A DNA stretch of 64,000 nucleotides from Pseudanabaena sp. UWO311 (GTDB taxonomy: Bacteria > Cyanobacteriota > Cyanobacteriia > Pseudanabaenales > Pseudanabaenaceae). Below are positions 1,222 to 24,638 of this stretch, one piece after another. How positions within the stretch are numbered: the stretch's first letter is position 1; the number at the start of each line of letters is the position of its first letter. The notes under the pieces are model-generated. The model searched no databases and was not told where the DNA came from. It saw nothing but the letters and a program-made list of their open reading frames with translations. The position numbers were made by a program, and so were the translations under genes. The stretch lies in the NCBI RefSeq assembly GCF_006937785.1, contig NZ_SJEE01000003.1:62001-126000 (forward strand), read 5' to 3'.

Positions 1222-4200
1222 ATGAAACGAGCTTTTCGCCATATCTGTTTGTCCTGTGCCTGTGCTTTGAGCTGTCTCTCTGCGGCATTTTCGGCTTCAG
1301 CGCAGATCGTTCCTGATGCGACTTTGCCTGTAAATTCCACCGTGACAACGACGGGGCAAGTTCATACGATTAATGGCGGTACTGCGGTTGGTGTTAATCT
1401 CTATCATAGTTTTCAAGATTTTTCGGTTCCGACGAATAACACGGCGCATTTTAATAATGCTGCTCAGGTTCAGAATGTGTTGTCGCGGGTGACGGGGAAT
1501 TCTGTTTCTAATATTGATGGGTTGATTAAGGCGAATGGGAATGCGAACTTATATTTGCTTAATCCCAATGGGATTGCGTTTGGGGCAAATGCGAAGTTAG
1601 AGATTGGTGGTACTTTTGTTGGTTCTACGGCGAATAGTTTTAAGTTTACTGATGGTAGCGAGTTTAGTGCGACAAATCCTCAGGCTCCGCCTTTGTTGAC
1701 GATGAGTGTTACGCCTGGGGTGCAGTATGGGGTTAGTAATCAGGGGGCGACGATCAGCAATTTGGGTAATCTCTCGACGGGGCAGGATTTGGTTTTGAAT
1801 GCGGATAAGTTGGATTTGCAGGGGAGTTTGCAAGCTGGGAGAGATTTGACGTTTCAGGCTCAGGACTCGGTGAAGATTCGGGATACTGTTAGTACTCCAT
1901 TTTGGGCTGTGGCGGGTCGCGATCTGCTGGTGCAGGGTAATCAATCTGTTGATATTTTTACTTTGAATAATGTCAATAGTGGGTTTTGGTCGGGTGGCAA
2001 TATGGTGTTGCGATCGGATAATCCCATCTTAGGCGATGCTCATTTCTTTGCTGGTAGTAATTTTAATGTTGAGAACTTAAATGGAACTTCTGGTAAATTA
2101 CTTAGCCCTAATGACCCAGTTATTTTAGCAAGTGGGGATGTGATTTTGGGTGACTATACAGGGGCTTCTTTGCATATATTGGCGGGGGGGGGGGTCACGC
2201 TGGGGAATATCACGATCAATAATGTTGGGGTTGATGTTAATACTACGATCAACCCTAGTAATACAAATCTATTTAATGCGACGAAAAGGTATGCGGATTT
2301 AGCGGATTTTAATTTGACGGAATATCAGGCGATCAAAAATAGTGATGGGACAGTTAAGGAGGTTGTGCCAGTTGCGGTTCCGATGAGGATTAATGGGAGT
2401 ACGCAGGCAACTTTGGATGTGCGATCGGGAGTGGATTGGTCGCAGTTGGGAGGTTTGCCGACTACACCCATATTGGGCACAGTGGCTCCTTCTGTTGTTA
2501 CCTATCCCATTCCTGCTTCTGGCAGGGCAGATATTACGATGAATGGGAAAATTCGGGTGAGCCAACCCAGTGGTTTGGTGTTGTTGACCAATCAGTTTAA
2601 TCCAAATACTTTATCAGGAGAAATTTCTGCTATTCGTGCAACAAGATTTGATCCTGAAAATGGGATTCCTTTAATTTATGTAATTGATACCAGCACGGAT
2701 GTTGTGGGGGCAGATGGAGGAGATATTAGAATCTATGGGAGAGGTGACATCTCATTTACCCTCTCGAGATTGGACTCGGGTTCGGGAGGCAAAGGTGGAG
2801 CAATTTCTTTATCTACAAATACTGGAAATATCTCACTTAACCACTCACTTTTGCGCTCGCCTGGCAGGAATGGTGGAGCAATTTCTTTTTCCACCAATAC
2901 TGGTGATATCTCACTACTTGGCGAAAAAAATATTGGAAGATTTTCTTCTGTCACCTCGTACTTGGACTCGTCCACGTTCTCGTCGGATTCGTCCTCTGGC
3001 AATTCAGGGAATGGCGGAGCAATTTCTTTTTTCACCAATACTGGTGATATCTCACTTAAATACTCGAGATTGAGTTCGTACTCAATCTCGACCTCAATCT
3101 CGAGTACGAATCTTTCCGGCAATTCAGGGGATGGCGGAGCAATTTCTTTCTCCACCAATACTGGTGATATCTCACTTAACTCGTCTCAATTGGACTCGTA
3201 CTCGAACTCAAGATCTGGCAACCCAGGGAATGGTGGAGCAATTTCTTTTTCCGCCAATACTGGTATCTCACTTACCTCCTCGATCTTGAACTCGAGCTCG
3301 AGTTCGGACTCTGGCAAACCAAGGAATGGCGGAACAATTTCTTTTTCCGCCAATACTGATATCTCACTTACCTCCTCGATCTTGGATTCGAGTTCGATCT
3401 CATACCTTGCAGGCAATACAGGGAATAGCGGAGCAATTTCTTTTTTCACCAATACTGGTGATATTACTTTCAACGACTTGACATCTTTCGCTAACTCTAT
3501 CTCTTACGACGTATACTTGAACACTTTATACTCTACCTCTCCCTATAAAGGTGGTACTTCAGGGAATGGCGGAGCAATTTCTCTTACTACAAATACTGGT
3601 AATATTTTTTTCAATAACTATTCTTCTTACTCTTTCTCGTACTCTGTATCAGGCAATTCGGGCTCTGGTGGGAATATATTTATCTCTGCTCCGAAGGGCA
3701 GCCTAATCGGTTCTTCTGGCATATCTTCTCTAAATTCTTTTTCCTTGTCAGAGCTCAATCAAACTAGTGGTAATGGCGGTAATATTGCCCTAGCAGCAAA
3801 AACTCAAATAAGTGGACTGGAACTCCTTACTCAATCTTCTAGTGAACAAGCAGGGATAGTACAAATCAGCGGATTGGGAGATCTTTATCTTAATAATCTC
3901 AAAGTCATTACCAGTAAGACGATAAGTCTTACTTTACCTCCTCCCCTCAATAAAACATTTACCTTTGAGGTTGGAAAAAGTGGACGTTCAGGAGATGTAA
4001 CAGTTACAGGAGTGGGCAGCTTCACCTTTGACAAAACCACTATCAACAGCATCACCCAAGGAAGCGATCCTGCTGGCAATATTTCCATCACTAGCCCCAG
4101 CACTGTCACCTTTCAAAACAATAGCCAAATCCTAAGCAGCACCAACAACAGTGGCTTAGCAGGAAGCGTCACAATCAACGCCGCCAAAGCGATCTCAATC

Positions 4201-6252
4201 CTAGACAAAAGCGAACTCAACGCCCAAACCACCGCCGCAGGCAAAGCAGGCAACATCACCATCAATACCCCACTCCTAAATCTTGATGGCACAGCCCAAA
4301 TCACCACCACCGCCACAGCAGCATCCACCAACACCGATGGCGGCGGTAGCATCACCCTCAATGCCTCCACCATGAACCTCTTCGGCACAGTCGGCATCTT
4401 CGCCGAAACCCAAGGAGTCGCCCCCGCAGGAATCCTCAAACTCAATCCCTATAGCAACGACTCAAACCTCAATATCGCCCTAGCCAACAACTCCGCCATC
4501 TCCGCCTCGACAACCGCAAGTGGCAACGGCGGTGACTTAAGCCTCACCGCACCACAATCAATTAACGTCGCAGGCAACGGCAAACTCGCTGTCGAAACAT
4601 CAGGAACAGGTAAAGCAGGAAACATTAGCTTCACCACATCACAACTAACCCTCACCGATGGAGTCTTAGTTTCAGCATCTACATCAGGAAAAGGAACAGC
4701 AGGCGACATCTTTGTTAAAGCAAATAACTTCAACATCACCAACGGCGCAAGAATTGAAACCGCAACCTCAAATAGTGGTAACTCAGGCAACATTGACGTG
4801 AGAGTCGTCGATCAATTCAATCTCACAGGCTCAAAAACAGGTTTATTTGCAAATACCTTGACTGGCTCCTCTGGTGCAGGTGGCAATATCTTTATTGACC
4901 CACAAGCAGTTACCCTCCGCGATGGAGCGCAAATCGCCGTTGGCAGCCTTGGCACTGGCATTGGTGGTAACATCACCCTAATATCCAATTTCCTTAGTCT
5001 CCTCAACAGTTCCTCCATCACCGCCGAAACCGCCAGCACCAACGGCGGCAACATCACCCTCAACATCCCTAACTTACTACTACTTCGCTACGCCAGCAAT
5101 ATCAGCACCACCGCAGGCACAGCCCTCGCAGGCGGCAACGGTGGCAACATCAACATTACTGCTGGATTCATCGTCGGAGTCAAAGGCGAAAACAGCGACA
5201 TCTTTGCTAACGCATTTAGGGGAAATGGCGGTAACGTCAATATCACTACTAACGGTATTTACGGCTTGGAATTTCGTCCACTCTTGACTGGTTTTAGCGA
5301 TATCACCGCCAGTTCTCAATTTGGTTTACAAGGAAGCGTCCTCGTAACCACCCCAGGCATCGATCCCAGTCGCGGACTAACCACCTTACCCCTCAACCTC
5401 GCCGACCCATCCAAACAAGTCAATCAAAGCTGTGTAATTGGAGGAAAACTCGCAAACCGCAACAATAGCTTTACGATTTCTGGTAAAGGAGGAGTACCCA
5501 AGAGTCCCAGTGATGCAGCATCTAGCAATCAGGCTCTAGTAGAACTATCTGATCCCGTCGCTAGCAGCATCAGTCAAACCCCCACCATAGAACAAAAAAC
5601 AGAAATAACGCCAGAGACACCCACCCGCTTAGTAGAAGCAAATACAATAATTCGTCGCAATGGCACAATAGAATTAGTCTCAGCTTCTGCACCTCTCAGT
5701 CCCGCCATACCTCAGCTTGCCTGTCCATTAAGTAGTAATAATGATGCAATTATTGCCACTAAAACCAAAAGTCTTGCTCTCAGCGATGGAGAAACTCCCT
5801 CAAACATATTTACCCTAGAGAATGAAAAGACAGGATTATTTGCTGTTGATATAAATCCAGTAAATAACTTAAACTTCACCCTAGACGATGAAAAGACAGG
5901 ACTATTTGCTGCTGATATAAATACAGTTAATAACTTTACTCTAGAAGAAGAAAAGATAGGACTATTTGCCAGTGCAGATAGTAATGGCAACAACATCGCT
6001 CTAGAAGCTGACAAGCTCTTCACCCTAGAAGAAGAAAAGATAGGACTATTTGCTCAAAACTTAACAGACAAAAACAACAACACTCTCATAAACTCATCAT
6101 ATGTTCTCATCCAATACGGAGATGGCATTTCAGTCATTAGCCAAGATCTTAGTTTCAGTGGTGACATTCTCCAATTTGCCAATAACCTTACCCTTCGTGA
6201 CAAAGATTTCATTACACCCGCAAACTTTAATAGAGTCAATATCCCAGCCTAA
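1222..6252 (+). CDS. Two-partner-secretion exoprotein A (filamentous haemagglutinin N-terminal domain)
   Basis: Large secreted beta-helix protein, 1676 residues from the ATG at 1222. I prefer this to the in-frame TTG at 1213 because the paralogues all start with MK(R/L) and TTAGGGA lies about 10 bases upstream. Residues 1-27 are a signal peptide ending SASA. Residues 28-165 are the TPS/haemagglutination domain (PF05860 type) with [33 protein letters not shown] and [13 protein letters not shown]. The body is Gly/Asn/Ser-rich beta-helix repeats, including a tandem [15 protein letters not shown] block with serine-rich spacers. A conserved C-terminal region follows ([43 protein letters not shown]). 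After the usual end motif IPQLAC there is an extra tail with four EK(T/I)GLFA repeats. An 11-G run at 2184-2194 could switch the frame. First of five paralogues; role as adhesin or surface filament is family inference. Confidence 0.93.
2184..2194 (+). repeat. Poly-G tract (11 G) inside exoprotein A
   Basis: An uninterrupted run of 11 G encodes part of LAGGGVTLG. The paralogue E has only 6 G at the matching place (about 20513-20518, LAGGSVTLG). The reading frame is intact at this length; a gain or loss of one G would shift it. Confidence 0.9.
2790..3640 (+). repeat. Tandem degenerate minisatellite in exoprotein A
   Basis: About eight in-frame copies of a unit that begins near GGAATGGCGGAGCAATTTC and encodes [17 protein letters not shown], separated by serine-rich spacers of variable length. 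The DNA identity between units is high enough to allow unequal recombination. Units begin near 2795, 2868, 3010, 3130, 3230, 3325, 3425 and 3562. Confidence 0.75.
5809..6054 (+). repeat. C-terminal EK(T/I)GLFA repeats of exoprotein A
   Basis: Four copies of FTLxxEK(T/I)GLFA, spaced 20-28 residues apart, lie after the conserved IPQLAC motif. Exoprotein B has three copies; C, D and E have none. Confidence 0.8.
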
Positions 6253-6290: not shown

Positions 6291-9200
6291 ATGAAACGAG
6301 CCCTTCGCCATATTTGTTTATCCTGTGCCTGTGCATTAGGTTGTCTCTCTGCTGCATTTTCAGCTTCAGCACAGATCGTTCCTGACGCGACTTTGCCTGT
6401 AAATTCGACAGTGACGACGACGGGACAAGTTCATACGATTAATGGCGGTACTACAGTTGGCGTTAATCTCTATCATAGTTTTCAAGACTTCTCGGTTCCG
6501 ACGAATAACACGGCGCATTTTAATAATGCTCTGCAGGTTCAGAATGTGTTGACGCGGGTGACGGGTAATTCTGTTTCTAATATTGATGGTTTGATTAAGG
6601 CGAATGGGAATGCGAATTTATATTTGCTTAATCCGAATGGGATTGCGTTTGGGGCTAATGCGAAGTTAGATATTGGTGGTACTTTTGTTGGGAGTACTGC
6701 CAGCAGTTTTAAGTTTGCTGACGGTAGTGAGTTTAGCGCGACAAATCCGCAGGCTCCGCCTTTGCTGACGATGAGTGTTACGGCTGGGGTGCAGTATGGG
6801 AATAGTAATCAGGGGGCGACGATTAGTAATTTGGGTAATCTGTCGGCGGGTCAGGATTTGGTTTTGAATGCTAATAGGTTGGATTTGCAGGGGACTTTGC
6901 AGGCTGGTAGAGATTTGACTTTGCAAGCTCAGGATTCGGTGAAGATTCGGGATAGTGTGGCTAGTCCGTTTGTAGCAAATTCTGGGAGAGATTTGACGAT
7001 TCAGGGAGATCGAGATGTTGATGTCTTTGCTCTCAATAATCCTTTGACGCAGATTTTGAGTGGTAGACATTTAAGCCTAGTAGGTGATGGGGTTATTTCT
7101 GGGGATGCTCACTTTTTAAGTGGTGGTAATCTTTCTTTTTTGACGATTACTGGAGGAGTGGCTAATTTTGTTAGTAAGTACGACCCGATTATTTATGCAA
7201 ATGGTAATGTGACATTTGGTAACTATACGGGGGCGGCGCTGAAGGTGGAGGCGACGGGTAGTATTCAAACGGGTGGTATTCGGATTACAAGACCAGATTG
7301 TCAAGCGGGAACGGTGGGGTGTGTTGGCGGTATTCCCAGTACCGATCCAGATTTTATAACTTTAACAACTCTTCCTTCGGTGATTTTGAGGGCAGGGGTT
7401 GCTTCTGCTTCTCCTAATTTAGGGAGTTCAGATGGAAGTATTACTTTTGGTTGGATTGATACTTCTAGTATTACTGGTAATGGTGGTGCGATCGAACTCT
7501 CAGCGAAGGGCGAAATCACTAATACTGGCTCATTTGTATCACCAAGTTTTGCAGATATGATTTTAGGGTCATATTCAGACATTGTTAAAGGTAATGGAGG
7601 AAGGATCTCTTTAACGTCGAATTTCGGTAACATTACTCTCCAAGGAGGAGATACGAACTCGTCATCGAGATCGCCAAGCGATTCAGGAAATGGAGGGTCG
7701 ATTTCTTTCTCCGCCAATAACGGTAATATTACCTTAACTAACTCAGGTATCAACTCATTCTCGCGTATGAGCAATATTGGATTTGCAGGGAATGGAGGAG
7801 CAATTTCTATTACTTCAAATTATGGAAATGTTTCATTAGTTAACTCTTCCTTGGACTCATCCTCAGCCGCATTTTTTGGCGGTTCAGAAAATGGAGGAGC
7901 TATTTCTATAACTTCAAATTCTGGAAATATCTCACTAGTTAACTCTTCCTTGAACTCTTTCTCGTTAGCAGGGACTGGCGATTTTGGGAATGGAGGAATT
8001 CCTTTTACAGCAGATTCAGGGAACGGGGGATCAATTTCCATGACTTCAATTTATGGGAATATCTCACTAAATAACTCGTTATCGAACTCTTTCTCGGTTG
8101 CACGGAATGGTTCTGCAAAAGAGGGAGGAAGCATTTTTTCCTCTGCTATCAATGGCTATATATCAGGTATAGGTTCTTCTTCTCTAAATTCTTTTTCAGT
8201 CACCATTAGTGGTAAAAGCAGTGCTGGAGGCAACGTTACACTAGAATCTAAAACTCTAATAAGTAACATTGAGATTTTTACCCAATCATCCACTGAGGTA
8301 GCAGGTACGGTGAAAATTAACGGATTAGGAGATCTGACTATTACGAACCTTAATGTTATTACGAGTAAGACGATAAACGTTAAAAATCCGCTCTATAGCC
8401 CGAGTCGCCCGATCTCACGAAACAATTTGCCTGTAATTGGCTTCCCACTTGGTCGAAGCGGAAGATCTGGAGATGTAATTATTACTGGGTTGGGCAATCT
8501 CACTTTTGACAGAAGTTCGATCAATGCTGTAACCCAAGGAAGTGATCCTGCTGGCAATGTTTTTATAGCTAGCCCCAGTACTATTACCTTTCAAAACAAT
8601 AGCCAAATCCTAAGCAGCACCAACAACAGTGGCTTAGCAGGAAGCGTTACCATCAATGCCGCCAAAGCGATCTCAATCCTAGACAAAAGCGAACTCAACG
8701 CCCAAACCACAAATGCAGGCAAAGCAGGCAACATCACCATCAACACCCCCCTACTAAACCTAGATGGAACAGCCAAAATTACTACCACCGCCACATCCAC
8801 ATCCACCAACACCGATGGTGGCGGCAGCATTACCCTCAACGCCACCACCATGAATCTCTTCGGTACAGTCGGCATCTTCGCCGAAACCCAAGGAGTCGCC
8901 CCCGCAGGTATCCTCAAACTCAATCCCTACAGCAACGACCTAAACCTCAAAATCGCCCTAGCCAACAACTCCGCCATCTCCGCCTCGACAACCGCTAGCG
9001 GCAACGGCGGCGACTTAATCCTCACCGCACCACAATCAATTAACGTCGCAGGCAACGGCAAACTCGCCGTCGAAACATCAGGCACAGGCAAAGCAGGAAA
9101 CATTAGCTTCACCACCTCACAGCTAACCCTCACCGATGGAGTCCTAGTTTCGGCATCTACTACTGGACTAGGCAAAGCAGGAGACATCTTGGTTAGAGCC

Positions 9201-10622
9201 AATAACTTCACAATCTCCAATGGCGCAAAAATCCAAACTACTACCTCTAGTAGTGGTGACTCAGGCACCATTGATGTGAGAGTCGCCGATAACTTCACCC
9301 TTGCAGGAACAACAACAGGCTTGTTTGCTGATACAGTTAAAAACTCCACAGGCAAAGGAGGTAATATCTTCATCGATCCGCAGTTAGTACTCCTGAAAGA
9401 TGGAGCCAAAATCGCTGTAGGTAGTCTTGGTACAGGCATCGGCGGCAACATCACCATCATCTCTAACCTCCTCACCCTCCTCAACAATTCCTCCATCACC
9501 GCCGAGACCGCCAGTACCAACGGCGGTAACATCACCCTCAATATCCCCGCAGTTCTACTACTACGCTACGGCAGCCAGATCAGTACCACCGCAGGCACAG
9601 CTCTATCAGGCGGCAACGGCGGCAATATCACCATCAACGCAGGATTCATCGTCGGAGTCAAAGGCGAAAACAGCGATATCTTTGCTAACGCCTTTACAGG
9701 CAATGGCGGTAACGTCAACATCACCACTAACGGCATCTATGGACTAGAGTTCCGTCCCAGTCTGACCACGCTTAGCGATATCACGGCAAGTTCTCAATTT
9801 GGTTTACAAGGGAGCGTCCTCGTGACTACTCCTGGCATCGATCCCAGTCGCGGACTAACCACCTTACCCCTTAACCTCGCCGATCCATCAAAACAAGTCA
9901 ATCAAAGTTGTGCGATCGGAGGCAAACTAGCGAACCGCAACAATAGCTTTACGATTTCTGGTAAGGGAGGAGTACCCAAGAGTCCCAGTGATGGAGTATC
10001 TAGCACGCAGTCACTAGTAGAGCTATCAGATCCAGTACCTATCAGCATTAGTCAAGTCTCAACCACAGAGCAGAAACTAGAAGCAACTTCAGAGACACCC
10101 ACCCGATTAGTCGAGGCAAATACAATAGTTCGTCGCAATGGCACTCTAGAACTAGTCTCAGCTTCTACTCCTCTCAGTCCCGCTATACCTCAGCTTGCCT
10201 GTCCATTAAGTCGTAATAATGATGCAATTATTGCCACGAAAACCAAAAGTCTTACTCTCAGCAATGGAGAAACTCCCTCAAACATATTTACCCTAGAGAA
10301 TGAAAAGACAGGATTATTTGCCATTGATATAAATCCAGTTAATAACTTAAACTTCACCCTAGACGATGAAAAGACAGGACTATTTGCTAGTGCAGATAGT
10401 AACGGCGACATCGAGCCAAAGGCTCTCAAGATCTTCACCCTAGAACAAGAAACGATAGGACTATTTGCTGTAGAGCAAAACTCAACAGAACAACAGCCAG
10501 AAATAACTTCAGAGATTCCCATCCGCTTGGTCGAGGCGAATATGATTCGCACTGGCACAATTGAGTTCGTCTCAGCTTATGCACCTCTCAGTCCTGCTAT
10601 ACCTCAACTTGCCAATCAGTAA
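6291..10622 (+). CDS. Two-partner-secretion exoprotein B
   Basis: 1443-residue paralogue of exoprotein A, starting 38 bases after it at an ATG preceded by AGAAAAACC. It has the same signal peptide (ending SASA), TPS domain ([23 protein letters not shown]), Gly/Asn-rich beta-helix body and conserved C-terminal region ([32 protein letters not shown]). The middle (about 7600-8100) carries GNGG(A/S)IS repeats alternating with serine-rich spacers. Beyond IPQLAC it has three EK(T/I)GLFA-type repeats, and then a second degenerate copy of the terminal cassette (RLVEAN...[10 protein letters not shown]) in which the conserved cysteine is replaced by asparagine. Predicted to be exported by a TpsB partner; adhesin or filament role is inferred from the family. 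Confidence 0.93.
7600..8100 (+). repeat. Tandem GNGG-serine repeats in exoprotein B
   Basis: Several imperfect in-frame copies of a unit encoding GNGG(A/S)IS(I/F)(T/S)(S/A)N(Y/S/N)GN(V/I)(S/T)L followed by serine-rich linkers, analogous to the block in exoprotein A but with different spacers. Confidence 0.65.
10287..10469 (+). repeat. C-terminal GLFA repeats of exoprotein B
   Basis: Three copies of FTLxx(E)(K/T)(T/I)GLFA, closely matching the tail of exoprotein A at the DNA level for the first two copies and then diverging. Confidence 0.75.
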
Positions 10623-10693: not shown

Positions 10694-12415
10694 ATGAAAC
10701 TACCGCGTCGCCACATTTGTTTATCCTGTGCCTGTGCTTTGAGCTATTTCTCTGCGGCGTTTTCGGTTTCAGCACAGATCATTCCTGATGCGACTTTGCC
10801 TGTCAACTCGGTAGTGACGACGACGGGACAAGTTCATACGATTAATGGCGGTACTACAGTTGGCGTTAATCTCTATCATAGCTTTCAGGACTTTTCGGTT
10901 CCGACAAATAACACAGCGCATTTTAATAATGCTGTGCAGGTTCAGAATGTGTTGACGCGGGTGACGGGTAATTCTGTTTCTAATATTGATGGGTTGATTA
11001 AGGCGAATGGGAATGCGAATTTGTATTTGCTTAATCCGAATGGGATCGCATTTGGGGCAAATGCGAAGTTAGATATTGGTGGGACTTTTGTTGGTTCTAC
11101 GGCGAATAGTTTTAAGTTTGTTGATGGTAGTGAGTTTAGTGCGACTAATCCTCAGGCTCCGCCATTGTTGACGATGAGTATTACGCCTGGGGTGCAGTAT
11201 GGGACTAGCAATCAAGGGGCGACAATTAGTAATTTGGGTAATCTGTCGGCAGGGCAGGATTTAGTTTTGAATGCGGATAAGTTGGATTTGCAGGGGACTT
11301 TGCGATCGGGGAGAGATTTGACGCTGCAAGCGCAGGATTCGGTGAAGATTCGCGATTCTTTGACCAGTCCCTTTGTGGCAAGGGCTGGTGGAAGTTTGCT
11401 AATACAGGGCGATCGCAATGTCGAAATGAACGTATTGGCGAATCCGAATAGTAGTTTGTTTGCTGGTGGAAACGTAGTTTTGCGATCGGCGAATCCCATT
11501 AATATTGATGCTCATTGGAGTGGTGGTGGAGATTTTCGAGTAGAAAAGTTAGATGGAAGGCTTGGTGATATTTACAGTTTGAACGATCCGATCTTTCAAT
11601 ATAGCGGAGACGTTAATTTTGGGGGGTACAGTGGTACTTCTTTACAAATTCTTGCAGGCGGTAGCGTTACGACTGGAGCAATTCGGATTACTGGGGCTGG
11701 TGCGGCTTTTAATAACAGCACAGTTGCGATTTCTAATGGATCGACTTTAATTGTTGATGGCATAAACAATCCAGTGCTAGATATTCGGGCGGGCGTTTTG
11801 CCTAGTGGGTTCTTTTCTAGTCCTGCGGTGACTACAACTGGCACTCCAACGAGTGCAAATATTTCTATTGGTTCGATCTCGATTGATAACTCCTTGGCGG
11901 GTTCTAATGGACTAGTCTTTTTGACGAATCAGTTTGCGCCTAATGCCGCTCTAGCAGGCAACATATTAGTAGGGGCGATAAATACAAATAATTCATTTGG
12001 GAATGCTGGATCGGTGGTAATAGACTCCAAAGGAGATATTTCGTCCAGCAATCAAATAAATACTTCTTCTAATGCTCTAAATGCGGGAGCTGTATCATTA
12101 ACAGCTAATGGGAAAGTGGATTTTGCTAGTGGATTAGGTATATATACTGCGGTCTCTGGAGTGGGAAACGGAGGGAATATAAACATTAATGCTTCATCAG
12201 TATCTCTCACTGACGGTAGTCTATTGGATGCTACTTCTTTTGGATCGGGGAATGGTGGAAATATCACTATTAATGCCACCGATCTATTTCAAATCACGAA
12301 CAATACATTCGGATTTACAGGACTTTTAAGCCCCGCACAACCATCATCAACAGGCAATGGTGGCAACATTATAATTAATGCAAACACTGTATCTTTACAA
12401 AGTAGTCTGTCGTAA
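10694..12415 (+). pseudogene. Two-partner-secretion exoprotein C, N-terminal part of a frameshifted gene
   Basis: 573 residues with signal peptide (ending SVSA), complete TPS domain ([21 protein letters not shown]) and the first beta-helix repeats. It stops abruptly at TAA 12413-12415, where the paralogues continue. The downstream reading frame (open from 12406) continues the same repeat pattern to 14883 with all paralogue C-terminal motifs, so a single frameshift near 12400-12412 separates the two parts. Compared with neighbouring repeat units, the join is about three residues short, which suggests a small deletion not divisible by three. As written, the product would lack the conserved C-terminus. 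Sequencing error or a phase-variable state are alternatives; no canonical slippery heptamer is visible. Confidence 0.85.
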
Positions 12416-12462
12416 CATTTGGTCAGGGAAATGCGGGAACCGTCACGATTAATGCAAACTCA

Positions 12463-14883
12463 GTGACTTTTACTGGTGGCGCTCAAATCCAAACTCAGAC
12501 ATGGAGCACCGGAAATGCAGGAGCCGTCACTATCAATGCTACAGATAGCGTATCATTCTCTGGGAGAAGCCCATTTGGGTTTCCTACTCTTATTGATGCC
12601 AATAATGATGGTGGATTTTCTGGGAATGCAGCTAGTATCAACATCAACGCAAAATCATTGTCAGTAACTGATGGAGCATTGCTAATTGCTGCTACACAAG
12701 GAGGAGGTAATGCGGGAAGCATCAATATCAATGTGACCGATTCAGTTTTATTTTCTGGCATTAATGGTTTTAATCGTTTAAGTAGTAGTGCATTCACCTC
12801 TGTATTTCTTAATAGAATTGGCAATTCTGGAGATATAAACATCAATGCAAAATCTGTAACTATAGAGAATGGCGCACAATTAAATGCTTCTATATATGGA
12901 ACGGGAAGTGCGGGAAATATTAAGATTAATGCAAGCGATCGCGTTCTGTTTTCTGGCGCAAACTCAATTGCCGCAACCAATGTAGGTGGTTCGGTTTTCC
13001 CTGGAGGAGGGCTTACGGCTCAACCTGTAGGAAGTATTGGTAACACAGGAACAGCAATTGGTAACGGTGGGAATATATTCATTAACGCACCATCAGTATC
13101 TGTAACGGATGGCGCTCAATTGCAAGCATTTACATTTGGAACTGGTAATGCAGGAAATATCTCCATTACAGCTGCTGACTCAGTTTTGTTCTCTGGAAGA
13201 GATAATAATGGAAATTTAAGTGGTACATACAGCATGGTGGGTTTTATCAATGTACCAACTGCGATCGGCAATGGGGGTAATGTAAATGTGAATGCAAACT
13301 CTCTAGCCGTGTTAAATGGAGCTCAACTGCTTGCTTCTACATTTGGGACGGGGAATGCAGGTAATATCAATATCAATGCTGCGAATTCAGTTTTACTAGC
13401 TGGTACAAATACTGCTGCAATTAGCTCAGTTGGCAGTAGTAATGCACCAATAGGTATAGGCAATGGGGGCAATGTGAATATTAAAGCAAATACTATTAAT
13501 GTAAAGGATGGTGCTCAATTGCAAACCTCAACATTTGGAATAGGAAATGCAGGAAGTATCAATATTAGTGCTATCGATTCAGTTGTGTTCTCTGGGGCAA
13601 ACACCCTTACAAATAGTACTGTTGGAAGTCCAAATGTTTTAACTACTAAAGGTAACGGTGGCAATATTAATGTTAATGCGAACTCTTTATCTGTAACAGA
13701 TGGCGCAGTACTAATAAATTCAACATGGGGACAAGGGAATGCAGGGAATATAACTATTAATGCTACTGATTCAATTCTGTTATCTGGTTCAGGTAATGAA
13801 TTTAATGGTATATCTAGTTTTGTGAATCCGAGCGCAATTGGTAATGGAGGAAATGTAAATATTACTACTAAAACCTTGACAATGCTGAACGGAAGTCAAA
13901 TTTCCACATCTACAGCTAGTAGTGGCAATGCAGGCAGCATAAATCTTTTCCTTACTCAATCTCTAATGCTCGATGGTGTTGGTACATCAATTAACGCTGC
14001 TACAGCAAATTTACCAAGCTCTACAGGTAATGGAGGCAGTATCTTCATCGATCCGCAAAACGTAACCCTTCAAAATGGAGCGGGGATTTTTACCAGTAGT
14101 TTCGGTTCTGGCATTGGAGGAAATATCACTATATTTTCTAATAATCTTTCTCTTTACAACAGTTCTTTTCTTAAGGCTGAAACTGCTAGCGCGAATGGAG
14201 GAAACATCAACTTAAATATCCCCGCACTTCTACTCCTAAGGTACGCTAGCAGAATCAGTACCACCGCTGGCAATTCCCTCGCAGGTGGCAACGGCGGTAA
14301 CATCAACATCAATGCTGGTTTTATCATCGGAATCAAAGACGAAAATAGCGATATCTTTGCCAATGCCTTTACAGGGAATGGCGGCAACATCAACATCAAC
14401 ACTAATATCATCTTCGGACTGAAGTTCCGCCCCAAACTCACTCCCTTTAGCGATATCGTCGCTAGTTCTCAATTTGGTTTACAAGGTAGCGTCCTCGTGA
14501 CAACACCAGGACTCGATCCCAGTCGCGGACTCACTACACTTCCCCTCAACCTCGCCGATCCATCCAAACAAGTCAATCAAAGCTGTGTAATAGGAGGTAA
14601 ATTAGCGAACCGCAACAATAGCTTTACTATTTCTGGAAAAGGAGGAGTACCCAAGAGTCCCAGTGATGGAGTATCTAGCACGCAGTCTCTAGTAGAACTA
14701 TCTGACCCCGTAGCTAGCAGCATTAGCCAAGCGACGAAAACAGAACAAAAACCAGAAATGACCCCAGAAACTCCCACCCGATTAGTAGAGGCAAATACAA
14801 TAGTTCGTCGCAATGGTAATCTAGAATTAGTCTTAGCATCTGCTCCTCTCAGTCCCGCCATACCTCAGCTTGCCTGTCAGTAA
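12463..14883 (+). pseudogene. Two-partner-secretion exoprotein C, C-terminal part
   Basis: 806-residue continuation of exoprotein C in a different frame. The first possible start is a GTG at 12463, but the frame is open back to 12406, and no signal peptide or ribosome site is present, so independent expression is unlikely. It consists of regular 60-75 residue modules (GNGGN(V/I)N(V/I)NA(N/K)S, DGAQL, STFGTGNAGNI, NSVLLAG), then the shared C-terminal region ([33 protein letters not shown]) and the terminal motif IPQLACQ. Its last several hundred bases are almost identical to those of exoprotein D, pointing to recent gene conversion or duplication. Confidence 0.85.
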
Positions 14884-14964: not shown

Positions 14965-17900
14965 ATGAAACTACCCATTCGTCATATTTGTTTATCCTGT
15001 ACCTGTGCTTTGAGCTATTTCTCTGCTGCGTTTTCGGCTTCAGCACAAATCGTTCCTGATGCGACTTTGCCTGTAAATTCGACAGTGACGACGACGGGAC
15101 TAGTTCATACGATCAATAATGGTACGACGGTTGGCGTTAACCTCTATCACAGTTTTCAAGACTTCTCAGTTCCGACGAATAACACGGCGCATTTTAATAA
15201 TGCTGCACAGGTTCAGAATGTGTTGACGCGGGTGACGGGTAATTCTGTTTCTAATATTGATGGGTTGATTAAGGCGAATGGTAACGCGAATTTATATTTG
15301 CTTAATCCAAATGGGATTGCGTTTGGTGCTAATGCGAAGTTAGATATTGGTGGAACTTTTGTTGGTTCTACGGCGAATAGTTTTAAGTTTACTGATGGTA
15401 GTGAGTTTAGCGCGACAAATCCACAGGCTCCGCCTTTGTTAACGATGACTGTTACGCCTGGGGTGCAATATAGTAGTGCTAACCCTGCACCAATAACCAA
15501 TGCGGGAAATTTGATCGTCGGACAAGACCTGACGCTTTCAGGAGGGAGTGTTACGAGTTCAGGTGCTCTCTCAGCGCCGCAGGGAAATATTCTGGTGGAG
15601 GCGATCGCAGGAGATATACAGATTAGAGAAGCGATTGCCCAAACCGCAACTTTCACGGCAAGCCACAATCTACAACTGACTGAAAGCCAGATCGGAACAT
15701 ATGGCGATTTGAATCTAATCGCAAAAGAGGCGATTATCGTTCGCGATAGCAATACTAGACCTTTTGTGGCGTTGTCAGGAGGCAATCTAACTGTTCAAGG
15801 CGATCGCCTTATAGATATCTTTGCACTAAAACACGATTTGAGTGGCTTTTATGCAGGTAACAACCTGTTGTTGCGCTCTGAGAATCCTGTTATTGGTGAT
15901 GCCCATTATTACACAGGTGGCAATTTCAAAATCGAGCAGTTAAATGGACGGCTAGGCAATCTAAATAGTCCCAACGATCCGATTGTTCGCTCTGCTGGCG
16001 ATGTGACTTTTGGTATTTATGTAGGAAGTTCCCTCCATGTCATTGCTGGAGGAAAGATTAACATCGATACGATCTTTATAACTGGTACAGATACCACCAA
16101 TACCACAATCAATCCAACCCGAACGCCCAACCTAGCCAATGTTACGCTCTCGAACGGCAAAACGCTGGTCATTAATGGGAGTACGAAGCCAACAGTTGAC
16201 ATTCGAGCAGGAGTTAATCCTGCAAATATAGGTACATCAGGCATCATAGGTGCAATTAGCACAAACTTTTTTAGTTGTGTATTTTTTGGGGCGAACTGTT
16301 TCTACAATAATTATCCATCTCCTACACTCCCACCGAGTACGATTCAATCTAATACTGGGAGTGGAATCACCATCGGTGATATTAGGATTGACAGCCCTAA
16401 CGGAATCGTTTTACTAACGAATAATTATCAGCCCAATCTGGCTTTGGCAAGGGGAGATATTACCATCACTGGAACAGGTGGTTTGGGTTATACGGGTATT
16501 GATGTGTCGAGTAATATCAGTAATGGCGGCTCTATATTCATCGATTCAAGATGGAATATTAAATCAGATAAAATCATCGATACATCTTCGACTGCACCCT
16601 TGGGCAATGGTGGCAGCATAACCTTACTCGCCAACAACAATATTAGCTTTGGCAACAATGCAATTATTACGTCATCAGCGTCCAATTTAAGCGGAGAGAT
16701 CAATCTTAAGGCAAATGGAGCAATATCAGGGCAAGGACTAAGCATAGATAGTACAAGCACTGCATCTGCGATCGCTGGTAATAGTGGTGACATTAATATC
16801 GCGGCAGCATCGCTATCGCTGCAAAAATCCCCTATTAATCCTTCTATAATATTTTCTGGGACTTTAGGAGCAGCTAAAGCTGGCAACATCAGTCTAAATA
16901 TTACTGGAAGTGTAATGCTTGATGGCTTTGTGAATAGTGCCCCAACTCAGATTATCAGCCAAGTCGCCCAAAATGCTACAGGTAATGGCGGATTGATCAA
17001 AGTGTATGCGGGAAATCTCAAACTTCAGAATGGAGCACAGATAAATGCCTTAACAGCAGGCTTGGGCAATTCGGGAGATATTGAAATTTTAGCCAATTCT
17101 ATCAATATAGACGGTATCGGTAGTGCGATAAATAACCAAGTGTTTCCGACTGCAAATGCTAATGGAGGGAAAATTACTCTAAATCTTGATTCTCTAAATG
17201 TAACCAATCAAGGACAGATTAGTTCTACTACTTTTGGTCGTGGAAATTCTGGCGACCTTAGCATTTTCGCCACGGGTGACATAATCTTTGATAGCAGTTT
17301 GGCAAATGCCTCAATCAATCTTGGCGCAATAGGCAAGGGTGGAGACATATTTTTGTCTGCAAATAGCTTGAAATTGCTGAATGGGGGATTACTCAGTTCA
17401 TCAGTGTTTGGCAATGGTTCTGGGGGCAAAATCACAGTTCAAGCGGATACAGTTTTCTTGAGTGGTACGGGAGTAATTTTTGGCAAACCCTCGCAAAGTG
17501 CGATCGCCACAAATGTACAAACAAATGCGGCGATCGGCAATGCTGGGGATATCAATCTGAGTAGTCGTATACTTCATCTTAGCAATAGGGCTTATATTGA
17601 AGCTGCCACTAATGGTCGCGGCAATTCAGGGGATATTAATATTCGTGCTAGTGAACTTGTGTCCGCCATCAACAACAGTACTATAAGCAACGTTATTGGC
17701 AATACTGGCAATGGTAAGGGCGGCAGTCTCAACATTTTCTCTCCGTCAATAACCATTAGCGATCGCTCCAGAGTAAGTGCTTATACTGAAGGGATTGGGG
17801 ATTCAGGCAATATCAACTTTTTTACTCAATCTCTCTCTCTGTCAAGCAATTCTGCACTTCAAGCCTTTACTGGAGGGACTGGTAAAGCAGGAAATATTGC

Positions 17901-19479
17901 GATTTCACCACTCAAAAACTTCTTCAACCCGAATAATGTGGTCAAAATAGAGAGGAGTTCTGTTTCTGTAGGTGTCGAAAGGAATGGTAAAGGGAATGCA
18001 GGAAACCTCTCGATCCTTGCAACCTCTTTGCAATTGCTAGATGGCGCTCAAATTGGAGCGAATATATTTGGGCAAGGAGATGGCGGACAGATCGTAATTC
18101 AAGCTGATAGCATTACGATAGATGGACTGAGATCGGTGTCTGAACAAAATTTCTTTAGCAGTATTGGTACGGCGGTACAAACCAATGCGATCGGCAATGC
18201 TGGAACTATTGATATCAAGACTCGTACCCTTAACCTTTTAAATGGAGCTTTCATTACCTCGGAGTCAAGGGGCTCTGGTAATGCTGGCAAAGTCGAAATT
18301 CTTGCCAGTGATTCGATTTTCTTAAATAATGGAAGTGTTTTTAGCAACGTAACGTCTACAAGTCAAGGCAATGGTGGCGATCTGAAGCTGTTCACTAATG
18401 ACTTTCAGATGACAAATCAATCAGTTTTGAATGCATCAACTGCCAGTGCTAGTAAAGGCGGAGACATTAAGGTCACTGCTAATCTATTGGGAATTTCTAG
18501 TGGCGCGAAGTTGATAACTAACACTTCTAGTAGTGGAGCAGCAGGTAATATTTCGCTATTCCTCAAAGATCTACTTAAAGTCGATGGAAATGATAGTGGT
18601 ATTTTTGCGGGTGCTGAAGCTAATTCTACTGGTGAAAGTGGAGCAATTTTTATCGATCCATCTTTTGTAACTATAACAAACGGTGCAAAGATTTCTGTAA
18701 GCAGTCTAGGCAAAGGAGATAGTGGCAGTATTCAGATTATTGCTGGCTTGCTATCTCTCGATAATAAAGCCCAGATCATTGCAGAAACGGCTAATGGCAG
18801 AGGGGGCAACATTCTTTTGCAGATGCAAGACTTACTCTTGTTAAGAAAGGGTAGCTCAATCAGTGCCACTGCTGCAAATGATGGTAACGGTGGTAACATC
18901 AACATCACTGCAGGATTCATCGTCGGAGTCAAAGGCGAAAACAGCGATATCTTTGCTAACGCATTTAGGGGAAATGGCGGTAACGTCAACATCACTACTA
19001 ATGGTATCTATGGACTAGAGTTCCGTCCCAGTCTAACCACTTTTAGCGACATCACCGCCAGTTCTCAATTTGGTTTACAAGGAAGCGTCCTCGTAACTAC
19101 CCCAGGGATCGATCCCAGTCGCGGACTAACCACCTTACCGCTCAACCTCGCCGATCCATCCAAACAAGTCAATCAAAGCTGTGTAATTGGAGGTAAATTA
19201 GCGAACCGCAACAATAGCTTTACTATTTCTGGAAAAGGAGGAGTACCCAAGAGTCCCAGTGATGGAGTATCTAGCACGCAGTCTCTAGTAGAACTATCTG
19301 ACCCCGTAGCTAGCAGCATTAGCCAAGCGACGAAAACAGAACAAAAACCAGAAATGACCCCAGAGACACCCACCCGATTAGTAGAGGCAAATACAATAGT
19401 TCGTCGCAATGGTAATCTAGAATTAGTCTCAGCATCTGCTCCTCTCAGTCCCGCCATACCTCAGCTTGCCTGTCAGTAA
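14965..19479 (+). CDS. Two-partner-secretion exoprotein D
   Basis: 1504-residue intact paralogue. The signal peptide (ending SASA) and TPS domain match the others up to GVQY. It then diverges: ITNAGNLIVGQDLTLSGGSV and QIREAIAQTATFTASHNLQL replace the segment shared by A, B, C and E, which makes this the most divergent family member in the subdomain after the TPS domain. The body has GNGG/GNSGDI modules without the serine-rich minisatellite. The C-terminal region rejoins the family consensus at [19 protein letters not shown] and ends IPQLACQ. The last several hundred bases plus the downstream spacer are nearly identical to C. Presumed exported adhesin or filament. Confidence 0.93.
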   Translation: MKLPIRHICLSCTCALSYFSAAFSASAQIVPDATLPVNSTVTTTGLVHTINNGTTVGVNLYHSFQDFSVPTNNTAHFNNAAQVQNVLTRVTGNSVSNIDGLIKANGNANLYLLNPNGIAFGANAKLDIGGTFVGSTANSFKFTDGSEFSATNPQAPPLLTMTVTPGVQYSSANPAPITNAGNLIVGQDLTLSGGSVTSSGALSAPQGNILVEAIAGDIQIREAIAQTATFTASHNLQLTESQIGTYGDLNLIAKEAIIVRDSNTRPFVALSGGNLTVQGDRLIDIFALKHDLSGFYAGNNLLLRSENPVIGDAHYYTGGNFKIEQLNGRLGNLNSPNDPIVRSAGDVTFGIYVGSSLHVIAGGKINIDTIFITGTDTTNTTINPTRTPNLANVTLSNGKTLVINGSTKPTVDIRAGVNPANIGTSGIIGAISTNFFSCVFFGANCFYNNYPSPTLPPSTIQSNTGSGITIGDIRIDSPNGIVLLTNNYQPNLALARGDITITGTGGLGYTGIDVSSNISNGGSIFIDSRWNIKSDKIIDTSSTAPLGNGGSITLLANNNISFGNNAIITSSASNLSGEINLKANGAISGQGLSIDSTSTASAIAGNSGDINIAAASLSLQKSPINPSIIFSGTLGAAKAGNISLNITGSVMLDGFVNSAPTQIISQVAQNATGNGGLIKVYAGNLKLQNGAQINALTAGLGNSGDIEILANSINIDGIGSAINNQVFPTANANGGKITLNLDSLNVTNQGQISSTTFGRGNSGDLSIFATGDIIFDSSLANASINLGAIGKGGDIFLSANSLKLLNGGLLSSSVFGNGSGGKITVQADTVFLSGTGVIFGKPSQSAIATNVQTNAAIGNAGDINLSSRILHLSNRAYIEAATNGRGNSGDINIRASELVSAINNSTISNVIGNTGNGKGGSLNIFSPSITISDRSRVSAYTEGIGDSGNINFFTQSLSLSSNSALQAFTGGTGKAGNIAISPLKNFFNPNNVVKIERSSVSVGVERNGKGNAGNLSILATSLQLLDGAQIGANIFGQGDGGQIVIQADSITIDGLRSVSEQNFFSSIGTAVQTNAIGNAGTIDIKTRTLNLLNGAFITSESRGSGNAGKVEILASDSIFLNNGSVFSNVTSTSQGNGGDLKLFTNDFQMTNQSVLNASTASASKGGDIKVTANLLGISSGAKLITNTSSSGAAGNISLFLKDLLKVDGNDSGIFAGAEANSTGESGAIFIDPSFVTITNGAKISVSSLGKGDSGSIQIIAGLLSLDNKAQIIAETANGRGGNILLQMQDLLLLRKGSSISATAANDGNGGNINITAGFIVGVKGENSDIFANAFRGNGGNVNITTNGIYGLEFRPSLTTFSDITASSQFGLQGSVLVTTPGIDPSRGLTTLPLNLADPSKQVNQSCVIGGKLANRNNSFTISGKGGVPKSPSDGVSSTQSLVELSDPVASSISQATKTEQKPEMTPETPTRLVEANTIVRRNGNLELVSASAPLSPAIPQLACQ

Positions 19480-19550: not shown

Positions 19551-22500
19551 ATGAAACTACCCCGTCGCTATATTTGTTTATCCTGTGCCTGTGCTTTGAG
19601 CTATTTCTCTGCTGCACTCTCGGCTTCAGCACAGATTGTTCCTGATGCGACTTTGCCTATAAATTCTACAGTGACGACGACGGGGCAAGTTCATACGATT
19701 GATGGCGGTACGACGAGTGGCGTTAATCTCTATCACAGTTTTCAAGACTTCTCGGTTCCGACGAATAACACGGCGCATTTTAATAATGCTGCACAGGTTC
19801 AGAATGTGTTGACGAGGGTGACGGGTAATTCTGTTTCTAATATTGATGGGTTGATTAAGGCGAATGGGAATGCGAATTTATATTTGCTGAATCCAAATGG
19901 GATCGCGTTTGGGGCTAATGCGAAGTTAGATATTGGTGGTACTTTTGTTGGTTCTACGGCGAATAGTTTTAAGTTTACTGATGGTAGCGAGTTTAGTGCG
20001 ACAAATCCTCAGGCTCCGCCTTTGTTGACGATAGATATTACTCCTGGGGTGCAGTATGGGACTAGTAATCAGGGGGCGACGATTAGCAATTTTGGTAATT
20101 TGTCGGCGGGTCAGGATTTGGGTTTGAATGCGGATAGGTTGGGTTTGCAGGGGGCTTTGCGATCGGGGAGAGATTTGACGCTGCAAGCTCAGGACTCGGT
20201 GAAGATTCGGGATACTGTGACAACTCCATTTTGGGCTGTGGCGGGTCGCGATTTGCTGGTGCAGGGAAATCAATCTGTTGATATTTTTACTCTGAATAAT
20301 GTCAATAGTGGGTTTTGGTCGGGTGGGAATATGGTGTTGCGATCGCAGAATCCTGTAATTGGAGACGCTCATTTCTATGCTGGTCGAGATTTGAAAATTG
20401 AAAAGTTGGATGGAAGCGTTGGTAATTTACTTAGTCCTAACGATCCAATAATTTTGGCGAGTGGTAATGTGACTTTCGGAGACTATACAGGGGCTTCGCT
20501 CCATATTTTAGCGGGGGGAAGTGTGACTCTCGGTTTTGTCACGATTGATAGTACTGGAACACAAGATACGACTATCAATCCAAATAATCCATCCCCGTTT
20601 TTGGCGAGCCTAGCCACATTTACTTGGACTGACTACAAAGCTGTACTAAATAGTGATGGATCGGTTAAGGAAGTTATACCAGTTCAGACTCCTATTACGA
20701 TTGATGGTAGTACTCAGGCGACTTTGGATGTACGTGCTGGAGTGGATTGGTCGCTGTTGGGTGGTTTGCCGACTAGTCCAATAATTTTTGTGGCAATCAC
20801 ACCTGATCCTACCTATTCCAGTCCTCCAGTCAGTGCAGATATTACTGTGTTTGGTCAAATCGTTCGACCAAGTGGATTAGTTTTGTTGACTAACCAATTC
20901 AGCCCCAATACTCTAAACGGCACGATCTTCGCTGGAGTAGATACTAGTACATCAGTTGCAGAGGCAAACGGAGGGGATATTCGAGTCTATGGACGGGGAG
21001 ATATTATGGTTTCTTCAAATTCGTCCTCTATCGCAGATACTGGCAATGCAGGGAATGGAGGAACAATTTCTGTGGTTTCCAACTTTGGTAATATCACGAC
21101 AGCAGGATTTTTTGGATTGGAATCGTCTTCTGGCTCTTACACTGGCACTACGGGAAATGGAGGAACCATTTCCTTAGCTTCCAACTTTGGCAATATTACA
21201 TTAGCTCCTTATTCGTATTTGCTGGTGAATTCTGGCACTGCGGGAAATGGAGGGACAATCTCTCTGGTCTCCAACTTTGGTAATATCACGTTAGATGATA
21301 GTTCGAAATTGATTTCATCCTCCGACGCGGGATTTTATCGTTGGCGAAGTTTTAATGATCCAGTATATGTTTATAGCGGCTATGCTGTGGATTCAGGGAA
21401 TGGAGGCACAATTTTCTTAGCTTCTAACTCAGGTGATATCAAGATGAATGGCGGTACCGAATTTTTTTCCGCGCAATTAAATTCTTCCTCGAAAAATGGA
21501 TATAATAGTAGGAATGGGGGACTAATTTCTATCGCATCCAACTCAGGCAATATAATAGGCTCTTATACATCGATTGACTCGTCATCGCAAACGTCCTTTG
21601 GAAATACTGGGAATGGAGGGGCTATTTCCTTAGCCTCCAACTCAGGCAATATTATCATGACAGGAAGTTTTTTAGGATTGGCGAACTCGTCATCGAAAAC
21701 GGATTCTGGAAATGCTGGGAATGGAGGCGCGATTTCCCTATCCTCCAATTCAGGTGATATTATCATAGCAGGATATTTATTTGCAACCTCATCATCAAAC
21801 GGAAATACTGGGGATGGAGGGGCTATTTCCTTAATCTCCAATTCTGGCAATATCAAACTGAATGATTTTACAATCTTGGATTCTTCCACTCTATCCTACG
21901 GTACAGGTAATATAGGAGGTGGAGGGGCAATTTCTCTAGTTTCCAATTCGGGGAATATTATACTGGATGATATAAACTTGATCTCGACTTCGGAATCGGG
22001 AAATGGCATTGATGGGAATGGAGGAGCAATTTCCTTAACTACCTACTCTGGCGATATTACTACGTTTAGTTCATACTTGGCCTCGTACTCAATTGGCACG
22101 GCAAACGGAGGTGAGATCTCCTTAACTTCTTACTCTGGTAATATTACGTTGGGTAGAGATTCTATCTTGTACTCAGGCTCTTTGGGGTCAGGAAATAGTG
22201 GAATAATAACTTTAGCCTCCACCTTCGGCAATATTACGTTAGGCGAATATTCTAGCTTGGATTCGTATTCTTTATCAAACGGCTTGGATTATGCAGGGAA
22301 TGGTGGAACAATTTTCGTAACCTCCAACTACGGTAATATTACGTTAAATAATTCGTCCTTGAAATCTTTTTCGTACTCGGATTCTGGTAATGCTGGGAAT
22401 GGAGGATCAATATTCCTCTCTGCCCCCAATGGCAACATTAGCAGTTTCCCCGACAGATCTTCAGTATATTCTTTTACAGTGTCTTTAGCTGGTCTAACAA

Positions 22501-24638
22501 GTGGTAATGGCGGTAACATTACATTAGAAGCAAAATCCGTAATGAGTAATCTGGAGTTTTTTACCCAATCCTCTTCTGCGACAGCAGGTATATTCAAAAT
22601 CAACGGGTTAGGAAATTTAGCTATCACCAATTTTCAGATTAGCACAAGTAAGGAAGTAACTATCAAAGTTAATTTCGGAGATATTACCTTTGATACTGGT
22701 GAAATTGGTAGATCGGGGGACGTAGATATTATAGGATTAGGGAGCCTCGCCTTTGACAATACCCTCATCAATACTGCCACACAAGGAACAGATCCTGCTG
22801 GCAATATTTCCATCACTAGCCCCAGTTTCGTAACCTTCCAAAACAATAGTCAAATCCTTAGTAACAGCAATAACATAGGGAATGCTGGAAGTATTACAGT
22901 TAAAGCAGATCAAGGCATCACACTCAAAGACAATAGTCAAATAACTGCCACAACTAATGGACAAGGCAAAGCAGGAGATATTCTGCTTAATTCCCCTGTA
23001 CTAACAATTACAGGCGGTTCGCAAGTATTAGCAGAAACCAATAACGATGGAGTAGGGGGCAGCATTACTGTCAATGCTCCAACATCCGTTAATCTGATAC
23101 GTATCCTAGATGCCTTCCCAGTACTCTCTGTCCAAACCAGTAAAGCAGGTAAAGCAGGTAACATTCTCATTAATACGCCCACTCTCAACCTCTCAGATCA
23201 AGCAAGAATCACTGCCACCGCCACCGCTACTTCCACTAATACCGAAGGAGGCGGAAGCATCACGCTTAATGCATCGACTATGAATCTCTTTGGCACAGTC
23301 GGAGTATTTGCCGAAACCCAAGGAATCGCGCCCGCAGGCACACTCTTTCTCAATCCCTACAGTAAAGATACAGCACTCAGTCTTGCTCTCACTCTCAACT
23401 CCCAGATTTCTGCATCAACATCAGGACAAGGTAATGGTGGCAACTTATTCGTCACCGCCCCGCAATCGATTAATGTTTTAGGCAGTGGCAAACTTGCTGT
23501 TGAGACATCAGGAATAGGCAACGCAGGAAACATCAGCTTTTCCACCCAAAACCTCACCCTCACTGATGGAGTCTTAGTTTCTGCTTCCACTGCAGGAACA
23601 GGGAAAGCAGGAGATATCTCTGTTAAAGCCAATAACTTCACACTTTCTAATGGATCTAAAATTCTAACCACAACATCTGGGGTTGGTAACTCAGGCACAA
23701 TTAAAGTAAATGTCGCGAATAACATCATTCTCCAAGGTAACGGCACAGGTTTATTTTCTGACACCGTCAAAGGCTCAAGCGGTAATGGTGGCAATATTAA
23801 TATCGATCCACAGCTTGTAATTCTGAAAGATGGAGCAAAAATCGCTGTTGGCAGCCTTGGCACAGGCATCGGCGGCAACATTGATATAATTTCCAATTAC
23901 CTCACTCTCCTCAACGGTTCCTCTATCACCGCCGAAACCGCCAGCACCGATGGAGGCAACCTCAACCTCAACATCCCCGCAGTTCTACTCCTCCGCTACG
24001 GCAGCCAAATCAGCACCACCGCAGGCACAGCCAACGCAGGCGGCAACGGCGGCAATATCAACATCACTGCTGGATTCATCGTTGGAGTCAAAGGCGAAGA
24101 TAGCGATATCTTTGCTAACGCATTTAGGGGAAATGGCGGTAACGTCAACATCACTACTAATGGTATCTATGGACTAGAGTTCCGTCCGAGTCTGACTTCT
24201 TTTAGCGATATCACGGCAAGTTCCCAATTTGGTTTACAAGGGAGCGTCCTCGTGACCACCCCAGGCATCGATCCCAGTCGCGGACTAACCACATTACCCC
24301 TCAACCTCGCCGACCCATCCAAACAAGTCAATCAAAGCTGTGTCATTGGAGGCAAACTAGCAAATCGCAACAATAGCTTTACCATCTCTGGAAAAGGAGG
24401 AGTACCCAAGAGTCCCAGTGATGCAGCATCTAGCAATCAGGTTCTAGTAGAGCTATCAGATCCAGTAACTAGCAGCATCAGTCAAACCAATACAACAGAA
24501 CAAAAAACAGAAGCAACTCCAGAGACACCTACCCGATTAGTAGAAGCAAATACAATAATTCGTCGCAATGGTTCAATAGAGTTAGTCTCAGCCTTTGCTC
24601 CCCTCAGTCCTGCTATACCTCAACTTGCCTGTCAGTAA
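19551..24638 (+). CDS. Two-partner-secretion exoprotein E
   Basis: 1695-residue paralogue, the longest of the five. Signal peptide (ending SASA), TPS domain, and then a segment closest to exoprotein A ([45 protein letters not shown]). The middle is a long run of GNGG(T/A)IS(L/V)(A/V)SN(F/S)GNI units with serine-rich linkers. The C-terminal region is the family consensus ending IPQLACQ, with no GLFA tail. The stop codon is only 18 bases before the CHAT protein start, so the two are probably co-transcribed. Exported surface protein by family inference. Confidence 0.93.
21048..22420 (+). repeat. Tandem GNGG-serine repeats in exoprotein E
   Basis: More than a dozen imperfect in-frame units encoding GNGG(T/A)IS(L/F)xSNxGNI(T/I/K)L followed by serine-rich linkers. 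It is the longest such array in the cluster; its units differ in length, which fits repeated gain and loss. Confidence 0.7.

Follow-up and report, generated by a model that had tools for sequence, protein, structure and literature searches.

An uninterrupted run of eleven guanines in a TpsA exoprotein gene of Pseudanabaena sp. UWO311: a probable young frameshift hotspot that would resemble fhaB if it slips

Introduction

The closest described counterpart of the locus presented here is fhaB of Bordetella pertussis, a gene of the TpsA family with a run of ten Gs at nt 1078–1087. Slippage of this run is a proven switch that shuts off FHA: variants with nine or eleven Gs truncate the protein, and mixtures of tract lengths were found in 49 of 49 isolates (PMC7446907), while an FHA-negative isolate carries mainly the G11 form (PMC6537726). 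The number of Gs at this position is 10 in B. pertussis versus 3 and 2 in sister species (PMC1891110), so the absence of a tract from relatives would not, by itself, refute a switch. Homopolymeric G tracts in genes for surface proteins are also found in Campylobacter, Neisseria, and Helicobacter, where they occur as sets with observed variation. In Vibrio cholerae O1, poly-A tracts lie within the surface-antigen genes wbeL and manA; the tract of wbeL was identical in 37 of 37 strains examined, and the switching of manA is reversible (PMC3441752). The indel rate of such runs climbs with their length in mutS-deficient Vibrio (PMC5854121). No homopolymer switch of a cyanobacterium was found in the open-licence literature.

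A preliminary description of DNA from Pseudanabaena sp. UWO311 proposed a poly-G run inside an exoprotein gene as a candidate phase-variation switch. Here we compare this run with the described systems, with the homologous site in other cyanobacteria, and with chance expectation.

Results and Discussion

The exoprotein cluster

The window, by which we mean the whole 64-kb stretch of DNA that was analysed, belongs to contig C27; the genome measures 5.21 Mb and is assembled in 61 contigs. Five large TpsA-type exoprotein genes, A to E, are arranged in tandem on its forward strand, head to tail, each with an N-terminal TPS domain. Gene A (1222–6252, with its ATG at 1222) codes for 1676 aa; its TPS domain, at about aa 27–216, was identified by a profile match to PF05860 (E = 1.4e-46), and its N-terminus looks signal-like, as judged by eye only. 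It is followed by B (6291–10622), which is its closest C-terminal paralogue (69% identity over A aa 583–1617), by C (10694–14883), by D (14965–19479), and by E (19551–24638). On the same strand, a TPR-CHAT gene (24657–27467) begins 18 bp past E, with which it probably forms one transcription unit, and a gene for a DUF928 protein (27512–28417) lies 44 bp past the TPR-CHAT gene. As expected for TpsA proteins, a TpsB transporter is encoded nearby: on the reverse strand, a divergent gene for a protein with POTRA_2 and ShlB domains begins at position 133 of the window, so that its 5' end occupies positions 1–133, and extends to the left of the window as far as contig C27 position 60385. The promoter scan gave nothing above shuffles. 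Because no Rho above the cut-off was found in the genome, we would expect a slip in A to have little polarity on the downstream genes B–E.

The N-terminal part of gene A is closest to that of E, whereas its C-terminal part is closest to that of B, and the TPS regions of A–E are homogenised to about codon 220 (to about 260 in the pair of A and E, less far in D), beyond which they diverge sharply, as after gene conversion. Within both A and B, the GC skew and the choice of Gly and Ala codons flip, from a G-rich first 1.2 kb with GGG and GCG to a later C-rich part with GGC and GCC. The poly-G tract was considered as a recombination junction or conversion boundary, and this was rejected, as the homogenisation of the paralogues ends about 60 codons upstream of it.

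The tract and its reading frame

Eleven uninterrupted Gs were counted in the window sequence at 2184–2194, on the forward strand and in frame, at nt 963–973 of the coding sequence of exoprotein A. This agrees exactly with the preliminary description, which had placed a G11 about 960 bases into an exoprotein gene, past the TPS domain. The codons are GCG GGG GGG GGG GTC, corresponding to A321-G322-G323-G324-V325. The tract is the only homopolymer of at least nine bases in the window, and the second-longest G run has six.

The early truncation that had been claimed for a one-base slip was confirmed by computation: exoprotein A has 1676 codons with G11, whereas with G12 it ends after 333 and with G10 after 359. 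Among the G lengths tested, 8, 11, and 14 alone preserve the 1676-codon frame, and 11 gives the exact codon count of the homologues. The product of a +1 or −1 change would consist of the signal peptide and the TPS domain, with the remainder of the beta-helix gone. Downstream of the tract, the comparison of A with B over codons 940–1500 gave a dN of 0.079 and a dS of 0.50, which shows purifying selection 3' of the tract; the functional state throughout this period has therefore been the full-length frame.

The homologous site and the origin of the tract

Cyanobacterial TpsA proteins with the filamentous haemagglutinin N-terminal domain belong to the same family as exoprotein A and have the same A-G-G-x-V turn past the TPS domain. 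At this site, A-G-G-S-V or something close to it is encoded in most relatives, and in all homologues examined the run is, unlike in gene A, interrupted, with 2–7 Gs in a row; paralogue E has the six Gs that had been described for its matching codons. More than seven Gs were not seen at the homologous site in any of the homologues examined (25 other Pseudanabaena genomes searched, 53 cyanobacterial loci), and a degenerate pattern of the site with at least eight Gs matches only 1 of 38 genomes of the order, that of Pseudanabaena sp. UWO311. A search for near-identical copies at 80% identity or more found none in plasmids or in one genome per species.

The codon count of the tract matches that of homologues in which the third residue is Ser, which makes an expansion improbable and points to a Ser-to-Gly substitution as the main source of the tract. 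The alignment thus suggests that a change from Ser (AGY) to Gly (GGG), mainly by base substitution, completed the tract. This change is unique among the homologues seen, which leaves room for selection.

Codon usage around the site favours such runs. Over its first 1260 nt, gene A uses GGG for 19 of the 40 Gly residues outside the tract and also makes heavy use of GCG, while the rest of the gene differs. When synonymous codons were re-drawn for the first 420 residues according to local usage, a run of G11 or longer appeared in 5% of 20000 simulations; this figure, and the codon-bias argument with it, hinges on the use of the local codon table, as the whole-gene table gave 0.06%. With the Ser of the homologues at the site, the value was 0%.

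In a structure model of residues 28–420, the three Gly residues (model residues 295–297) lie between two strands of the beta-helix, with a pLDDT of about 94–97 around the tract and low confidence before model residue 148. Judging from this model, Gly in place of Ser would be easily tolerated at the turn. A PDB profile search with the tract region gave a chance match only. In another genome of the comparison (G004, locus L074:7286), an orthologous exoprotein gene has a run of eight Gs that does not fall on the tract site but some 60 codons further upstream, as would be expected if GGG-rich coding alone makes such runs.

Poly-G in the genome and mismatch repair

When the window was shuffled 100 times with its dinucleotides preserved, a G11 never appeared, and Markov models of order 1–3 expect 0.003–0.015 G11 per window strand. 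For both strands of 5.2 Mb, however, the same models extrapolate to about 0.4–2.4, and the genome has two. The count is thus within the extrapolation, and what is surprising in the window is not so in the genome as a whole: the tract is striking in gene A, yet there is no genome-wide excess of G11. The second G11 lies in intergenic repeat-like DNA, at a distance of 18 bases from the end of a contig, and the four G9 runs of the genome lie within ordinary genes, close to the start of a gene, or between genes. We rejected the idea of a poly-G-rich genome because the number of G9 words is inside the range of the genus, a range that leaves aside the draft genomes G021 and G023. Both are inflated by poly-G, a large share of which sits close to the ends of contigs, in the manner of two-colour sequencing artefacts.

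The mismatch-repair proteins MutS1 and MutL are intact in the genome, so a hypermutable genome lacking this repair was rejected as well. Slippage rates should consequently be lower, though long runs still mutate more.

Comparison with phase-variable genes and evaluation of alternatives

The tract of gene A and that of fhaB have much in common. Both are runs of 10–11 Gs located roughly 1 kb after the start of a TpsA coding sequence (963–973 here, 1078–1087 in fhaB), in both the gain or the loss of a single base cuts the protein short at an early point, and in both the tract is short or absent in sister species. On paper, then, gene A would work like fhaB if its tract slips. The differences are that fhaB has shown length mixtures within isolates together with correlated loss of the protein, whereas gene A is known from an assembly alone, and that the host here is a free-living cyanobacterium in which gene A belongs to a cluster of five. 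The other systems are more distant. As in Campylobacter, Neisseria, and Helicobacter, the candidate slipping element is homopolymeric G in the gene of a surface protein, but the two G11 and four G9 of this genome give no sign of a set. As in wbeL and manA of V. cholerae O1, the homopolymer lies within a gene for a surface antigen and a one-base slip truncates the product; the wbeL tract, however, is poly-A and conserved across strains, while that of gene A is poly-G and read from one strain.

The reading that we prefer, with a probability of roughly two in three, is that the tract is a frameshift hotspot of recent origin, restricted to this species and fhaB-like if it slips, in an exoprotein gene that is being maintained, and that it arose mainly by substitution and is not a conserved contingency repeat. 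According to this reading, a TpsA gene would have gained an uninterrupted G11 in one species, at codons for a tight turn of the beta-helix (A-G-G-S-V to A-G-G-G-V), mainly by base substitution in a region where GGG and GCG codons were already favoured. At this length, polymerase slippage would make +1 and −1 changes more frequent than elsewhere; each such change would lead to the 333- or 359-residue product and remove exoprotein A from the surface of that cell, and a second slip could restore the full-length protein. The preliminary proposal of a phase-variation switch is supported in part. Its mechanism has a precedent within the TpsA family, in fhaB, but the tract is private to the species among those examined, one Ser-to-Gly change with the GGG and GCG bias explains it, the genome is not enriched in poly-G, and the mismatch-repair genes are intact.

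A stronger version of the proposal is that the tract is a selected contingency locus, kept long because reversible on/off expression of exoprotein A pays, for example in adhesion or in recognition by phages or grazers. The tract is indeed the longest G run of the cluster, it lies in a surface gene past the TPS domain, both other frames truncate, and the parallel with the G10 of fhaB points the same way; moreover, since several paralogues share the TPS region, the loss of one could be tolerated. We nevertheless consider a selected locus unlikely, given that the tract is not conserved in any relative examined, that one amino-acid change and codon bias explain its origin, that the genome has no poly-G set like those of Campylobacter or Neisseria, that mismatch-repair genes are present, and that copy C broke by a different route. 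That poly-G slippage turns a giant TPS exoprotein of a cyanobacterium on and off, as an evolutionary parallel to fhaB of B. pertussis, is likewise unlikely. If this were true, it would be the first homopolymer switch in cyanobacteria known to us, and it would extend poly-G phase variation beyond host-associated pathogens to a free-living phototroph, with one protein family hit twice at nearly the same place. If the tract does not switch, ordinary codon bias can create a long homopolymer in a surface gene, which calls for caution with scans for phase variation that use tract length only.

Two further explanations appear still less probable than selection for switching. A sequencing or assembly artefact, with a true run that is shorter or longer, could be suspected because the assembly is a draft of 61 contigs and because poly-G abounds in G021 and G023 of the same genus, to a large part close to the ends of contigs; here, however, the tract is about 64 kb inside a 271-kb contig, its flanks align to the homologues without gaps, and eleven Gs, one of the three frame-keeping lengths among those tested, match the homologous codon count. 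An action at the RNA level, by transcriptional slippage or a G-quadruplex, would yield both the full and the truncated product from unchanged DNA. The tract and the following bases form a candidate G-quadruplex on the forward strand at 2184–2205 (G11-TCACGCT-GGGG, that is, G11-N7-G4), the sole canonical quadruplex pattern in the window, and the predicted RNA folding energy of 120 nt went from −32.4 to −44.6 kcal/mol once quadruplexes were allowed. Against this improbable alternative, the quadruplex is a prediction only, any G11 followed by GGGG would score, and the pattern is not conserved in homologues.

The frameshift in copy C and other long runs

The frameshift that had been claimed for copy C was found: the gene is broken at about 12383–12412, into pieces at 10694–12415 and 12463–14883. 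The break has no homopolymer, and so lends no support to slippage; a slipped homopolymer in C was rejected for this reason. Each half can still be aligned well with the paralogues, from which it follows that the break is probably recent.

Another G11 of the genus was observed in a helicase-like gene whose reading frame breaks at the tract (G011:C174:16108–16118; L041, L141). Two orthologues of 93% identity (L142, L143) lack the run, with only G4 at this place, and compared with them the stretch has 2 nt more. This is the only hint of a slip in the genus, and it may equally reflect a sequencing error. In the UWO311 genome (G000), the second G11 (C59:18–28) and one of the G9 runs (C11:136–144) are both near contig starts, in similar intergenic stretches where the G run is followed by inverted-repeat-like sequence, perhaps a small mobile repeat.
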